A DNA stretch of 33,863 nt from contig JAGOQQ010000001.1 of the NCBI GenBank assembly GCA_017991395.1, forward strand, positions 1 through 33,863. The letters run 5' to 3'. This document shows, piece after piece, positions 19,046-30,085 of the stretch. The stretch's first letter is position 1, and each line of letters starts with the position of its first letter. A model generated the notes under the pieces. The model was not told the DNA's origin. It ran no database searches and saw only the letters and a program-made list of their open reading frames with translations. Origin of the DNA: Minisyncoccota bacterium (GTDB lineage Bacteria > Patescibacteriota > Minisyncoccia > Phycocordibacterales > UBA9973). The position numbers were made by a program, and so were the translations under genes.

Positions 19046-19165
19046 GAGCCCCGTTGTCGGGAATCTTCCATTACCCTTCTTCGTGAAAACTACGAACGGG
19101 CAAAGCATAGACAGTATACCTTATCTAATTATTCGGACAAAGTCCTTATGTCTAACGAAAAGCTT
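19046..19165 (-). repeat. tRNA-linked structured element, Thr copy B (degenerate)
   Basis: A second copy of the element beside tRNA-Thr, directly after the kinase stop codon. It keeps the core TTCGGACAAAGTCCTTATG (plus strand), the TTCCATTAC hairpin start and the tRNA T-arm copy TGTCGGGAATC. About 30 bp with its own hairpin (TTCGT/ACGAA) are inserted in the TTACA hairpin. The outer stem of the large hairpin is mismatched, and the partner strand of the closing stem is missing. It carries a promoter-like pair reading toward the 23S mimic. Confidence 0.75.
19113..19140 (-). promoter_or_regulatory. Promoter-like pair inside element copy B
   Basis: On the minus strand TTGTCC (19135-19140) and TATACT (19113-19118) are separated by 16 bp, pointing at the 23S-like RNA. 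Confidence 0.45.
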
Positions 19166-19173
19166 AAGAAAAA

Positions 19174-19707
19174 TTACAGACCTATATCATCGGTCATTTT
19201 TTCTATCAACTCTTTTTCATCTCTAATCCTCCTTAATATAAAAATCTGTTTATTCTCACGATGTTCCAATACTTTCTTAATAATGTCGTCAGAAGAATAG
19301 CTCCAAATATATTTAATTAAATTCCAATCAAAAAATGTCTTTTGACCTTCTGGCATGTCTGAACGCTCTTTTCCATAATTTTTTATCACTCTCTTTAACA
19401 ATCTATAGTAAATAATCCTTTTTGGAAAATCAAAAAAAATTATAATATCTGAAGCATTAAGTCTTATATCAAAAGTTTTCGATTTCCAAAAATGACCATC
19501 GATTATCCATTCATCCTTTTGCAAAATATCATCTTGATGTTTAATAAATACATCTTGTTTTATTCCACCCTTTTCTTTCCAAAAAATCTTATCAAGATGA
19601 TAGACTGGAATACCTAATAACTTGCCAAGGTAATTTGACATGGTTGTTTTTCCAGAAGCTGGACAGCCTATTATTGATATTTTTTTAGCTAATTTCACTT
19701 GAGCCAT
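19174..19707 (-). CDS. P-loop kinase of the FlaR / adenylate-kinase-like family
   Basis: A 177-residue P-loop NTPase resembling the family annotated as DNA topology modulation protein FlaR, which is related to small nucleotide kinases. Walker A is GCPASGKTT (14-22), followed by the family pattern VYHLDKIFW, EWIIDGHFW, RLNASDIIIFFDFPKR, RLLKRVIKNYGKERSDMPEG and IKYIWSY. The substrate is unknown. The start chosen is ATG 19707 (MAQVKLAKKISIIG), which lies inside the copied tRNA-Thr end (CAATGGCT); GGAAG lies 10 nt upstream. The gene is clearly more AT-rich than its neighbours and is bracketed by two copies of the tRNA-linked element, which suggests it arrived as cargo. Its stop codon is 9 bp from copy B. 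Confidence 0.85.
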   Translation of the reverse strand: MAQVKLAKKISIIGCPASGKTTMSNYLGKLLGIPVYHLDKIFWKEKGGIKQDVFIKHQDDILQKDEWIIDGHFWKSKTFDIRLNASDIIIFFDFPKRIIYYRLLKRVIKNYGKERSDMPEGQKTFFDWNLIKYIWSYSSDDIIKKVLEHRENKQIFILRRIRDEKELIEKMTDDIGL

Positions 19708-19823
19708 TGTCGGGAATCTTCCATTACATGGACAGTATACCTTTTCGAAACATTCGGACAAAGTCCTTATGTTTAACGAAAAGCTTTTCGATTCCCGAAC
19801 ACAAGCAAAGCAGTTTGCTTGTT
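19701..19823 (-). repeat. tRNA-linked structured element, Thr copy A
   Basis: On the plus strand this holds, in order: a closing stem TCGGGAATC (19710-19718) pairing with GATTCCCGA (19790-19798), which copies the tRNA-Thr T-arm; hairpin TCCA-TTACA-TGGA (19720-19732); a long hairpin 19741-19783 with stems CTTTTCG, AAACAT and GGAC and an unpaired AA; and hairpin ACAAGCAAA-GCAG-TTTGCTTGT (19801-19822). The tRNA-Asp copy (21167-21279) has the same layout, loops and AA bulge with different, compensating stem sequences. The end of the element supplies the start codon of the kinase gene. Confidence 0.85.
19734..19761 (-). promoter_or_regulatory. Promoter-like pair inside element copy A
   Basis: On the minus strand TTGTCC (19756-19761) and TATACT (19734-19739) are separated by 16 bp, with a predicted start about 20 nt before the kinase ATG. 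The tRNA-Asp copy of the element lacks the TATACT. Confidence 0.5.
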
Positions 19824-19882
19824 CAATGGCTCCCATTTAAAAAGAAGCGACATGCGCGCTTCTTTTTAAATGGGAGCCATTG
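19824..19882 (-). repeat. 26-bp inverted repeat that includes the tRNA-Thr 3' end
   Basis: Perfect 26-bp arms (19824-19849 and 19857-19882) with a 7-nt loop. The tRNA-side arm contains CAATGGCT, the 3' acceptor strand and discriminator base of tRNA-Thr, so the second arm is antisense to the tRNA end. The inner AAGAAGCG/CGCTTCTT with A and T runs also resembles a terminator. Confidence 0.85.
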
Positions 19883-19947
19883 TCGGGAATCGAACCCGAG
19901 ACCTCATTCTTACCATGAATGCGCTCTACCGACTGAGCTACAACGGC
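19875..19947 (-). tRNA. tRNA-Thr (anticodon GGT)
   Basis: A 73-nt cloverleaf on the minus strand. The acceptor GCCGTTG pairs with CAATGGC, the D-arm is AGCTCAGTCGGTAGAGC, the anticodon loop ATGGTAA gives GGT, and the T-arm is TCGGG-TTCGATT-CCCGA. The discriminator base is T and CCA is not encoded (CCC follows). The 3' end is part of an inverted repeat and is copied twice downstream. Confidence 0.96.
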
Positions 19948-20004
19948 TTATGTGTTTCCTGTAAACAACTCTTATTGTATATCATCAAACCCAAATTTTT
20001 CCAA

Positions 20005-20040
20005 TCAAAAAATCCCGCACAATTGTGCGGGATTTTTTGA
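20005..20040. terminator. Bidirectional terminator after the DUF305 gene
   Basis: A perfect 36-bp palindrome centred on AATT, with ATCCCGCAC/GTGCGGGAT flanked by A and T runs. It ends the DUF305 gene and insulates the tRNA-Thr unit. Confidence 0.9.
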
Positions 20041-20043
20041 TTA

Positions 20044-20421
20044 TTATTTTGACCACTCCACTTTCCACGCTTTCATCTGATTTATTTCTTTTGTCTGTAC
20101 GTCGATTATTTCTTGTGCCATTTTCAAAAGCTCAGGACGTGTGGTGCTTGTGAGTACAAGCTTTGCCATATCCACCGCGCCTTCATGGTGCACTATCATT
20201 TCATCCACAAACGCGTTGTCGAACTCAGCACCAGTCTTACCCCGAAGTGATGCATTCATATCTTCCATCATTCCACTCATTGAATGATTCATCATCATAC
20301 TCCCATCATCCATTTTGTGTATATCGTCCATGCGATCCATTTTTGAGTTTCCAAAAAAATACCCTCCCAAAAGACCCACCACGAGCACAAGAACAATGAC
20401 ACCGTAATTAGTTTTTTGCAT
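20044..20421 (-). CDS. DUF305-family ferritin-like protein, membrane-anchored
   Basis: A 125-residue DUF305 protein. An N-terminal membrane helix (about 7-24, GVIVLVLVVGLLGGYFFG) anchors a methionine- and histidine-rich stretch (about 28-55, MDRMDDIHKMDDGSMMMNHS). The DUF305 helical domain follows with FDNAFVDEMIVHHEGAVDM (HH at 78-79) and ELLKMAQEIIDVQTKEINQM. Members of this family are often found with copper-handling genes. The Met/His stretch fits metal binding, but no copper genes are nearby. It stands alone between two terminators. Confidence 0.88.
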   Translation of the reverse strand: MQKTNYGVIVLVLVVGLLGGYFFGNSKMDRMDDIHKMDDGSMMMNHSMSGMMEDMNASLRGKTGAEFDNAFVDEMIVHHEGAVDMAKLVLTSTTRPELLKMAQEIIDVQTKEINQMKAWKVEWSK

Positions 20422-20460
20422 AATGTGTATTTCGATTAATTGTATAGTTACAAGTATATC

Positions 20461-20485
20461 AAAAAGGCGCCAAATTGGCGCCTTT
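20461..20485 (-). terminator. Terminator after the HAD-like gene
   Basis: AAAGGCGCCA and TGGCGCCTTT form a near-perfect stem, followed on the minus strand by a T run; it begins 2 bp after the stop codon region of the 20488-21018 gene. Confidence 0.88.
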
Positions 20486-20487
20486 AC

Positions 20488-21018
20488 TTATGCTCTTTTA
20501 AATTGGATCTTGTTCATAATTTCACCAAAAATCCTTTTTGGATCTGCTAGTATTGTAAAGTGTTTTTGGTGTGTTCTGAACTCGCAACCTTCTTTTTCGT
20601 CAGGATTAAAAAGTATCAAATTGATTGAAGGGTCACTTTCATGTATATGATGCAAAACCTCCCTTCTGTCATCTATGAATTGCGTAATCCCTCTTTGTGC
20701 ACACACTATTGCCTTTTCTTTTCGCTCTTTGCAGAAAATTAAATTTTTTGTACAAGCACCTGTTCGTTTCAAAATATTATTCTTTTCAAGCCAATACAAA
20801 ATCGTATTCCTCAGCAAACCATCTGCGCTGGATACAATAAACACATTTTCTTGCCGAAAACGATTCACTATCCCATTCACTGCCTTTACAATTCCATACG
20901 TCTCAGGAATTCCTTTGCAGAGCTGAAGTGGGATATCCCCATTGTATATTCTGAGTAAATCAGAGAGTGGTGAGCGCTTCATTATCACTCCAACGATGTC
21001 AATACCAATTTTTTCCAT
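20488..21018 (-). CDS. HAD-superfamily-like protein lacking the second catalytic aspartate
   Basis: A 176-residue protein that resembles a small HAD hydrolase. The N-terminal strand IGIDIVGVI has the motif I nucleophile Asp7, but the usual +2 Asp is Val9. Motif II is IVSSADG (Ser63 or Ser64), a lysine-rich segment near 98-102 can supply motif III, and motif IV is FIDDRREVL (Asp116, Asp117). Loss of the +2 acid/base would impair ordinary phosphatase chemistry, so it may be a non-enzymatic or altered member. It has its own promoter (21036-21064) and terminator. The substrate is unknown. Confidence 0.75.
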   Translation of the reverse strand: MEKIGIDIVGVIMKRSPLSDLLRIYNGDIPLQLCKGIPETYGIVKAVNGIVNRFRQENVFIVSSADGLLRNTILYWLEKNNILKRTGACTKNLIFCKERKEKAIVCAQRGITQFIDDRREVLHHIHESDPSINLILFNPDEKEGCEFRTHQKHFTILADPKRIFGEIMNKIQFKRA

Positions 21019-21035
21019 AGTGTGCGTTTTTTATA

Positions 21036-21064
21036 AGTATAGTGTGGAACGCAAAATAAATCAA
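21036..21064 (-). promoter_or_regulatory. Promoter of the HAD-like gene
   Basis: On the minus strand TTGATT (21059-21064) and TATACT (21036-21041) are separated by 17 bp, about 18 bp from the ATG. Confidence 0.65.
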
Positions 21065-21100
21065 AAATCACCCTAATTCATTTTGAGGGATTATTTTGAT
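21061..21100 (-). terminator. Weak terminator of the tRNA-Asp unit
   Basis: CCCT (21071-21074) and AGGG (21086-21089) lie inside a longer imperfect stem (TCAAAAATCACCCT against AGGGATTATTTTGA). On the minus strand a T run follows. Its outer part overlaps the -35 box of the HAD-like gene. Confidence 0.45.
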
Positions 21101-21103
21101 AAA

Positions 21104-21166
21104 GAACGGGACTTGGTCACAAGTTACTAAGTCTACTCACACACTTCGTGTATTGTGGATTGATTG
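21104..21166 (-). other. Short cargo-like segment between two tRNA-Asp T-arm copies
   Basis: GAACGGGACTT, the plus-strand image of the tRNA-Asp T-arm/acceptor junction, occurs at 21104-21114, again at 21167-21177, and in the tRNA at 21337-21347. The 52 bp between the first two copies contain small inverted repeats (ACAC/GTGT) and no frame. The position matches that of the kinase at the Thr locus. Confidence 0.5.
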
Positions 21167-21279
21167 GAACGGGACTTTGCTATTACATAGCCAGGTGCTT
21201 TTCAATTTATTCAAAGCGGAGCTTTTCATAAATAATGAAAAGCCTTTCAAGTCCCGCACGGAGCCAAGCAGTTGGCTCC
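21167..21279 (-). repeat. tRNA-linked structured element, Asp copy
   Basis: On the plus strand: closing stem CGGGACTT (21170-21177) with AAGTCCCG (21249-21256), copying the tRNA-Asp T-arm; hairpin GCTA-TTACA-TAGC (21179-21191); a long hairpin 21197-21243 with stems GCTTTTCA, ATTTAT and AAGC, triloop GGA and an unpaired AA; and hairpin GGAGCCAA-GCAG-TTGGCTCC (21260-21279). The order, loops, AA bulge and linker (CTTTC) are the same as at tRNA-Thr, while stem sequences differ with pairing kept. Confidence 0.88.
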
Positions 21280-21339
21280 TTCACTGCGCCATAATAAAAA
21301 ACTCAGCATATGCTGAGTTTTTTATTATGGCGCAGTGAA
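21280..21339 (-). repeat. 60-bp perfect palindrome that includes the tRNA-Asp 3' end
   Basis: Two 30-bp arms with no spacer, centred on CATATG. The tRNA-side arm contains the tRNA-Asp acceptor 3' strand TTCACTGC, the discriminator G and the encoded CCA. The core AAAAAACTCAGC/GCTGAGTTTTTT is a terminator-like hairpin. Confidence 0.9.
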
Positions 21340-21404
21340 CGGGACTTGAACCCGCAACCTCTCGCGTGACAGGCGAGTGCTCTAACCAGTTGAGCTACCA
21401 CTGC
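21328..21404 (-). tRNA. tRNA-Asp (anticodon GTC), CCA encoded
   Basis: A cloverleaf on the minus strand. The acceptor GCAGTGG pairs with TCACTGC (one G-U), the D-arm is AGCTCAACTGGTTAGAGC, the anticodon arm is CTCGC-CTGTCAC-GCGAG giving GTC, and the T-arm is GCGGG-TTCAAGT-CCCGT. The discriminator is G and CCA is encoded, unlike the other three tRNAs here. The 5' end (17 nt) recurs three times upstream, and the 3' end recurs downstream. Confidence 0.96.
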
Positions 21405-21405
21405 A

Positions 21406-21720
21406 TTTTTTGTTTTTTTCAACTTCTACTAAACAGTGTAAATTTTCTTTTCTTACACTCGCCTTGGGCGAGGCTCACACATAGTCTAATTTAGTTGAGC
21501 TACCACTGCATTTTTTGTTTTTTTCAACTTCTACTAAACAGTGTAAATTTTCTTTTCTTACACTCGCCTTGGGCGAGGCTCACACATAGTCTAATTTAGT
21601 TGAGCTACCACTGCATTTTTTGTTTTTTTCAACTTCTACTAAACAGTGTAAATTTTCTTTTCTTACACTCGCCTTGGGCGAGGCTCACACATAGTCTAAT
21701 TTAGTTGAGCTACCACTGCA
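21406..21720. repeat. Three identical 105-bp tandem repeats carrying the tRNA-Asp 5' end
   Basis: Units 21406-21510, 21511-21615 and 21616-21720 are identical. On the minus strand each begins TGCAGTGGTAGCTCAACT, the first 17 nt of tRNA-Asp plus one preceding base. The remaining 87 bp contain hairpins CTCGCC-CAA-GGCGAG and GTGTAA/TTACAC, and CAGTG/CACTG can close the unit into a tRNA-sized fold of about 77 nt. There is no frame and there are no variable spacers. Confidence 0.9.
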
Positions 21721-29811: not shown

Positions 29812-30085
29812 AAAGTAGGTTATACCTAGAACGCAAAGCGTAGAGCGTAAAAACAAGATTCCGTGTCATCCTGAACTTGTTTCAGGATCTCGAAAGTTTT
29901 TTTAATATGATCAATTCTTGATTCATTCTTACCCCTCCGCCCTTCGGGCACCTTTTCTTACAGAAACTGTACACCTTTTGGATATATTTCTTCACAAGTT
30001 CGAAATCTATCACAAAAGGTCTTGCGCTTGGGTCTCTATCCCAAGCTCACCTCGCGGGGAGGATTGAATTTCTACTTCCTACTAT
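29812..30085. repeat. Repeat-rich intergenic region
   Basis: About 270 bp without a gene, made of several repeat families. 29828-29850 holds GTAGAGCGT words, also found near 25590-25615. 29866-29890 is a REP-like hairpin (ATCCTGAA-CTTGT-TTCAGGAT). 29929-29953 is the second exact copy of the 25-bp GC-rich repeat. 29970-30060 holds ACCTTTTG/CAAAAGGT and GCTTGGG/CCCAAGC inverted repeats. 30070-30098 is a TAGTAAGTA-type run. Confidence 0.7.

Follow-up and report, generated by a model that had tools for sequence, protein, structure and literature searches.

The stretch of DNA analysed here (the window, 33,863 nucleotides, positions 1 to 33,863 of contig JAGOQQ010000001.1, assembly GCA_017991395.1) comes from a Minisyncoccota bacterium whose 763 kb genome lies in eight contigs. 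Behind two tRNA genes of the window, tRNA-Thr(ggt) and tRNA-Asp(gtc), stands a structured element containing copies of the 3′ end of the neighbouring tRNA. An initial annotation, made from the letters alone, had placed such elements at 19701–19823 and 21167–21279 with a common layout of closing stem and three hairpins, and both were recovered by sequence comparison and folding. Their closing stems are, as had been claimed, the T-arms of the tRNAs that ARAGORN places alongside (TCGGGAATC/GATTCCCGA at Thr and CGGGACTT/AAGTCCCG at Asp). The elements are taken here, at about even confidence, to be members of a family of small mobile units of ~145–165 bp without cargo, located at the 3′ ends of tRNA genes in one order of Parcubacteria. 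The features of the two loci, with strand and basis, are as follows.

19046..19165, plus: truncated older Thr-type unit, retaining the left T-arm copy, a long-loop variant of hairpin 1 and the greater part of the long hairpin (sequence; BLAST match in own genome)
19174..19707, minus: array cargo gene for a 177-residue P-loop kinase-like protein (open reading frame; Pfam AAA_18, 4e-07)
19701..19718, plus: distal (left) copy of tRNA-Thr 57–74, antisense, a direct repeat of the tRNA 3′ end (exact repeat)
19720..19732, plus: Thr hairpin 1, 5 bp, TAC triloop (folding, alignment)
19733..19740, plus: Thr conserved linker CAGTATAC (alignment)
19741..19783, plus: Thr long hairpin, unpaired AA at 19775–19776 (folding, alignment)
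19787..19798, plus: internal tRNA-sense copy of tRNA-Thr 54–65 (T-arm), pairing with the distal copy (copy-matching analysis)
19801..19822, plus: Thr hairpin 3, 9 bp, GCAG tetraloop, at the T-stem/acceptor junction, 65/66 (split-position count)
19824..19834, plus: internal sense copy of the tRNA-Thr acceptor 3′ strand, 66 onward (sequence, split analysis)
19835..19870, no strand: bidirectional terminator-like palindrome between element and tRNA-Thr (sequence, folding)
19871..19948, minus: target gene tRNA-Thr(ggt) (ARAGORN)
20488..21018, minus: putative cargo gene at tRNA-Asp, 176 residues, no Pfam match (open reading frame; Pfam)
21104..21114, plus: extra tRNA-Asp T-arm copy, followed by GGTCACAAG (type C motif, see below), remnant of another unit (sequence; comparison with type C cores)
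21167..21177, plus: distal copy of the tRNA-Asp 3′ end, GAACGGGACTT (sequence, copy matching)
21179..21191, plus: Asp hairpin 1, TAC loop (sequence, alignment)
21197..21243, plus: Asp long hairpin, unpaired AA (sequence, alignment)
21246..21257, plus: internal sense copy of the tRNA-Asp T-arm (copy-matching analysis)
21260..21279, plus: Asp hairpin 3, GCAG loop (folding, split analysis)
21281..21291, plus: internal sense copy of the tRNA-Asp acceptor 3′ strand (sequence, split analysis)
21292..21327, no strand: terminator-like palindrome at Asp (sequence, folding)
21328..21404, minus: target gene tRNA-Asp(gtc) (ARAGORN)

Anatomy of the unit

Read outward from the tRNA, the 3′ end is followed by a terminator-like hairpin, an inverted copy of the tRNA end (positions 54–74) split by the GCAG hairpin, a long bulged hairpin, a CAGTA linker with the TAC hairpin, a direct copy of tRNA 57–74, and then cargo or older units. 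On the element strand the order is an antisense copy of tRNA 74–57, hairpin 1 (TAC loop), the CAGTA linker and the long hairpin with its unpaired AA, followed by a sense copy of 54–65, the dinucleotide AC, hairpin 3 (GCAG loop), a single T, a sense copy from 66 onward, the terminator-like palindrome and the tRNA. The parts described in the initial annotation were all present; the extent given there was too short, as it missed the acceptor 3′ strand after the GCAG hairpin (19824–19834 and 21281–21291), and the true structure also merges with the terminator palindrome of the tRNA, with an inverted copy of ~20 nt of the tRNA 3′ end. The stems listed there were paired as stated, with the correction that the apical Asp stem is AAAGC/GCTTT and not AAGC. 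The segment at 19046–19165, named as a further copy, is a Thr-type unit, containing a covariance-model match at 19112–19162 (25.9 bits), but it is truncated and has neither the internal T-arm copy nor the GCAG hairpin.

Among 69 scorable copies, the break made by hairpin 3 in the internal copy fell after tRNA position 65 in 42 and after 64 in 22, so that 64 of them have the hairpin at the T-stem/acceptor junction (65/66). The distal copy repeats the tRNA end in direct orientation; in 29 intact cases it started at position 57 in 13 and ended at position 74 in 10 and position 75 in 4. The segment 57–74 consists of two 9-nt halves with hairpin 3 at its centre. At least 10 of 12 nucleotides were preserved in the internal copy of 90% of copies and in the distal copy of 45%. 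The TAC and GCAG loops were conserved while their stems varied. A promoter role for TATACT in the linker was dropped because the linker varies among copies (AGTACCC, CAGGT), and a likeness of TTATGTTTAA in the long hairpin to a XerD arm was dropped because that segment differs between copies.

Distribution, tracking of the local tRNA and constraint on the fold

The window's own genome gave 13 matches by BLAST and 22 with a covariance model; with the latter, matches were obtained in 42 of 60 related genomes, at up to 35 per genome. Carriers among the relatives are named as Candidatus Nomurabacteria, Paceibacterota, Parcubacteria-group and unspecified Patescibacteria assemblies, and the assignment to Parcubacteria used here is taken from them. 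At a stricter threshold, 13 genomes of a phylum-wide sample of 380 matched, 10 of them of the same order and the rest weak. An exact 16-mer was found in 52 stretches of genome contigs, of which 8 from the Parcubacteria group were real elements, some truncated, and the remainder lacked the structure; the same 16-mer gave four chance matches only in viral contigs and none in phage and plasmid collections, so that no sign of a phage or plasmid vector was seen there. No Rfam model gave anything relevant, at lax thresholds included, and no description of the element was found in the open-access literature, with a description elsewhere possible; the earlier statement was that no described family with this layout is known. 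A weak model match in the window at 29952–30026 (30.5 bits) comprises TTTCTTACAGAAACTGTACACCTTTT and a long hairpin with no tRNA near, and may be an orphan or decayed element.

When 92 matches were examined, a tRNA on the opposite strand lay on the downstream side in 85, with its 3′ end within 100 nt in 67; most copies were antisense, 15–50 nt behind the tRNA 3′ end. Occupied isotypes included Thr, Asp, Lys, Ile, Val, Arg, Glu, Ala, Gly and Pro, and further Leu, Cys, Ser, Tyr, Trp, Asn, His, Gln, Phe and Met. The internal T-arm copy (12 nt) was compared with the adjacent tRNA in 80 distinct copies of the element and agreed with it at a mean of 10.54 of 12 positions, against 7.92 for permuted tRNAs (highest of 200 permutations, 8.21). 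In a model-free check of the 36 tRNAs of the own genome, 12 had an inverted copy of their T-arm on the downstream side, within 800 nt, and one had it on the upstream side, with T-arms of other tRNAs at 0.006 per tRNA. The prediction that further copies would occur at other tRNAs, each with a closing stem matching its own, was thereby borne out at many isotypes in many genomes.

The fold was assessed in an alignment of 12 copies, in which 90.0% of cells were paired, compared with 70.4% in shuffles, two-sided changes occurred in 29 of 39 pairs, and the covariation score was 0.538 against 0.173 for shuffled and 0.09–0.12 for slid controls; the compensatory stem changes claimed from two copies are thus upheld. 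As the aligned structure was derived from one of the 12 sequences, more weight is placed on the controls and on later independent measures. In hairpins 1 and 3 of 105 copies, 483 + 836 = 1,319 pairs were Watson–Crick and 3 + 6 = 9, out of 1,359, were G·T, and two-sided changes numbered 501 against 5 one-sided ones. The acceptor stems of tRNAs from the same genomes had 31 G·T in 539 pairs (Fisher P = 1e-10 compared with hairpins 1 and 3). An RNA helix is expected to pass through G·U pairs, and their near-absence in fast-changing stems therefore favours a constraint on folded DNA rather than RNA.

The same data bear on an RNA-level tRNA mimic, in which a transcript of the tRNA-sense strand, acting as a regulator or being itself the mobile form, would recruit RNase P or some other tRNA enzyme. 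Its parts would be an acceptor 5′ strand, a hairpin replacing the D/anticodon domain at 65/66, a T-stem, an enlarged T-loop and an intact tRNA 3′ end. The tRNA topology is correct, with the hairpin at the right junction in nearly all scorable copies, and the two conserved loops on variable stems are what such a molecule could show. Apart from the avoidance of G·U pairs, it is opposed by the inverted copy, whose complementarity extends to the T-loop and is exact for the tRNA 3′ strand, the real 5′ acceptor strand being uncopied (GCCATTG in the Thr element, GCCGTTG in tRNA-Thr). A terminator-like hairpin also stands between the element and the tRNA transcript, and only tRNA models reach the Rfam gathering score in the window. 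We consider a mimic of this kind unlikely. Of the two possibilities raised in the initial annotation, a mobile element reading tRNA ends as folded DNA is favoured and an RNA pairing with the tRNA 3′ end is weakened.

Perfect hairpins could also be kept by templated correction, as in a passive product of replication, in which switches of template between the palindromic T-arm and the terminator hairpin would triplicate the tRNA end in inverted form, cores being picked up by chance. The order of copies, direct–inverted–direct with turns at the terminator and at the T-arm, is as such a process would leave it. Against this, the sequence of hairpins 1 and 3 and of the linker is family-specific, conserved and fixed in position throughout the families of the order, and copies occur in most close relatives; we judge a passive origin improbable.

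Gain, loss and arrays

Loci with orthologous neighbours were compared in three genomes of one genus, and the presence of the element at their tRNAs differed. The gap between tRNA-Cys and tRNA-Leu was ~46–48 nt in two genomes and ~156 nt, with an element, in the third. At tRNA-Lys(ctt), genome G020 has a unit between two exact copies of GATTCCCTCACGGGGCAC, whereas G029 and G035 have a plain terminator and no unit; empty and filled sites were likewise contrasted at Tyr, Trp, Pro and Gly(tcc).

Cargo-free units occurred in tandem ~165–200 bp apart at Pro, Leu, Lys, Val, Arg, Tyr and Ser, and gene-carrying units at Thr (the window, with the P-loop kinase), Val, Glu and Ala, the Ala element lying 2.6 kb from its tRNA. 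The ATG of the kinase-like gene (19707–19705) falls within the distal copy of the tRNA-Thr end, and 44 of 74 distal genes are oriented away from the tRNA, as would suit a non-mobile cis-regulatory leader of the gene behind the tRNA. The other 30 distal genes read toward the tRNA, the downstream genes differ, and the empty sites in sister genomes, with the polymorphism and movement seen, argue for mobility; such a leader is the least probable of the explanations weighed here, and a leader RNA was rejected on the 44:30 orientation of the distal genes.

For 23 of 50 cores the closest relative belonged to the same genome, and for 3 of 50 it stood at the same tRNA of a different genome. Since cores resemble those of the same genome and not those of the same tRNA, the tRNA arms appear to be re-derived locally. 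Strangest among the features of the family is that cores spread from tRNA to tRNA within a genome and yet have arms that match whichever tRNA they stand at.

Several further observations were made. The Val array (L011, 3880–5520) contains two near-identical copies, terminator included, ~1.5 kb apart with different genes beside each, and is a candidate recent event. At tRNA-Leu(tag) of G020 (L197, 1180–4430), a 3.3-kb insert that is absent in the sister genome G029 separates the element from its tRNA; it carries a gene for an XRE-type regulator and two larger genes, and its inverted terminal repeats measure ~150 bp. Beside inverted and direct copies of the local tRNA end, a second core with a structure of its own, type B (GCCTCTCCTTTCAGTCGAGATGCTCAATTTTTAGC...AAAAATTGGCACC), occurs at L009 9080–9180 (tRNA-Arg gcg), L009 3110–3200 (Lys) and L014 2870–2970 (Tyr). 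A third, type C (GAAAGCCGGAGGCG...GCCGAGGCGGGGTCGCG-hairpin-GTGACCGA), has the same plan of inverted and direct copies at L135, L140, L141, L149 and L014 (tRNAs Gly-tcc, Leu-tag, Val-gac, Gln-ctg and Trp), with fragments also at 21104–21159 of the window (Asp). On the 5′ side of tRNA-Asp, the window has a perfect 105-bp tandem repeat of 3.2 copies (21388–21720), each unit of which holds the first ~18 nt of tRNA-Asp and its upstream region; short copies of tRNA 5′ ends were also seen 5′ of tRNA-Lys (L009 near 3500) and tRNA-Val (L011 near 5700).

Candidate enzymes and proposed mechanism

The own genome contains a sole PF00589 tyrosine recombinase, which is Xer-like, passes the XerA_Arch cut-off only and falls far below the integron integrase cut-offs; no IntI was found. 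A single tyrosine recombinase, with a score like that of the window's Xer, was present in each of the element-rich genomes G057, G049, G045 and G012, and the Xer-type protein was the only tested family present in all ten element-rich genomes surveyed. The Y1 HUH transposase (PF01797), searched in the own genome only, was not found there. Cas1 (PF01867) was found in none of the ten element-rich genomes, and large serine recombinases (PF00239) were absent from four (G057, G049, G038 and G051).

Reverse transcriptase (RVT_1, PF00078) was absent from seven of the ten, the window's included, and present in three. This absence, together with the Watson–Crick-only stems, makes retrotransposition very improbable, by which a tRNA-primed or tRNA-derived retroelement, like a bacterial short interspersed element, would have copied its arms from the tRNA; the arms re-derived from the host tRNA and a distal copy of ~18 nt that resembles a primer-binding site are the points that speak for it. 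The DEDD transposase of IS110 (PF01548) was found in one of the ten and in neither the window's genome nor the other eight. The split internal copy could otherwise be read as the two-part guide of a bridge-RNA-like molecule steering a transposase to tRNA 3′ ends, given its bipartite form around a central hairpin, its better preservation than that of the distal copy and the many tRNAs occupied. Both guide halves pair with the same strand, G·U pairs are avoided, and with the transposase so rare such RNA guidance is held to be about as improbable as the passive origin considered above.

PF01797 (in the own genome), PF00078, PF01548, PF01867 and PF00239 were excluded as universal partners by these absences. 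In G049 (25 copies, listed completeness 100%), only the Xer-type protein is present among the tested families; as serine recombinase, reverse transcriptase, IS110 and Cas1 are absent there, a housekeeping Xer, by elimination, or an enzyme of an untested family is the most likely partner. As a separate observation, the own genome (G000) encodes four large serine recombinases of 527–582 residues (C5:67839, C7:446, C1:94558 and C6:50436), three of them ~1 kb from tRNA-Leu(caa), tRNA-Ser(tga) and tRNA-Ser(gct), and the regions downstream of both tRNA-Ser genes share another repeated motif, AAAAAGTACGGTTCGA.

Among known systems, integrative elements and islands at tRNA 3′ ends encode a tyrosine integrase specific for one tRNA site. 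The present units resemble these, and tycheposons, in their insertion at the tRNA 3′ end, the intact tRNA and the direct repeat of its end (57–74, 29 cases, with empty sites). They differ in their size of 145–165 bp, in the occupation of nearly all isotypes, in the extra inverted copy split by a hairpin and in having no integrase in the unit, many element-rich genomes having one Xer-type protein only. IS200/IS605 and REP/RAYT elements use hairpin-based recognition of single strands and target-pairing guide nucleotides; guides there are 4–5 nt and a Y1 HUH transposase is needed, of which the own genome has none. The bridge RNA of IS110 likewise has a two-part target-complementary segment in a structured noncoding end, and differs in its transposase, which the window's genome and eight other element-rich genomes lack. 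Integration of the Casposon or CRISPR type is not indicated, given the lack of Cas1 in all ten genomes, nor is a serine integrase, four being present in the own genome and none found in G057, G049, G038 and G051.

The attC sites of integrons share with the units a variable sequence on a conserved fold, pairing kept without sequence conservation, extrahelical bases or a hairpin in one strand (here the AA bulge and the hairpin at 65/66, within a covarying fold conserved beyond sequence), and tandem arrays of recombination site and cargo gene. The units have several hairpins per site, the neighbouring tRNA and not attI as target, and a stem that tracks that tRNA; the attC core boxes RYYYAAC and GTTRRRY were found together in 0 of 80 copies (shuffled mean 0.1). 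A folded single strand as substrate has its precedent in integron attC (PMC2727003). The folded attP(+) single strand of CTXphi is recombined with a double-stranded chromosomal site by the housekeeping XerCD (IMEX; PMC4246890); the target there is dif and here the T-arm/acceptor of a tRNA, the folded single-strand site is here inferred, and a role for Xer is argued by elimination only.

The mechanism proposed, to which we give even odds, is that of a mobile unit at the tRNA 3′ end whose folded single strand rebuilds the target duplex, acting like attC without being attC. The mobile reading is favoured by the empty sites and within-genus polymorphism, the direct repeats of 57–74 and the near-absence of G·U pairs in fast-changing stems. 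The anatomy, the match to the local tRNA, the direct repeats, the presence and absence within a genus, the tandem and gene-carrying arrays, the relatedness of cores within genomes and the Watson–Crick constraint are observed; from these we infer a single-stranded substrate, the kind of enzyme and the sequence of steps. In one folded strand the inverted and direct copies would pair into a duplex identical to tRNA 57–74; between its two 9-bp halves the GCAG hairpin would be extrahelical, and the remaining hairpins would lie in the terminal loop. This mimic would be joined by a recombinase to the double-stranded tRNA gene, replication would settle the junction, and the tRNA would be restored with one unit added, older units being pushed outward.

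Several points weigh against this proposal. The arms are copied at two places and interrupted by element-specific hairpins, so that plain strand exchange alone cannot make a new tRNA-specific unit, and the preservation of the distal copy in ~45% of copies against 90% for the internal one is not explained by a pure two-arm att model. The searches turned up no dedicated recombinase, and the Xer-type protein occurs also in most element-free genomes. The genus comparison consists of three draft genomes. Templated correction of palindromes could account for Watson–Crick perfection, and the tRNA-like topology of the tRNA-sense strand keeps an RNA reading open.

The kind of element appears to be new. 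Somewhat short of even confidence, we propose a new class of mobile DNA, consisting of folded single-strand units that write the sequence of the target tRNA into their own recombination site on insertion, by which one family would come to occupy nearly every tRNA and to build gene-cassette arrays without a dedicated integrase of any tested class. The element may serve as a marker for gene cassettes in uncultured genomes, and a folded 120-nt strand with a tRNA gene would be a testable substrate. Site choice by a recombination site that adopts its target's sequence would rest on a new principle, which might also be of use as a tool. If the proposal is true, Parcubacteria, a group with tiny genomes and poorly understood gene acquisition, would have an integron-like means of gene capture in which, unlike in integrons, the docking sites are the cell's own tRNA genes.

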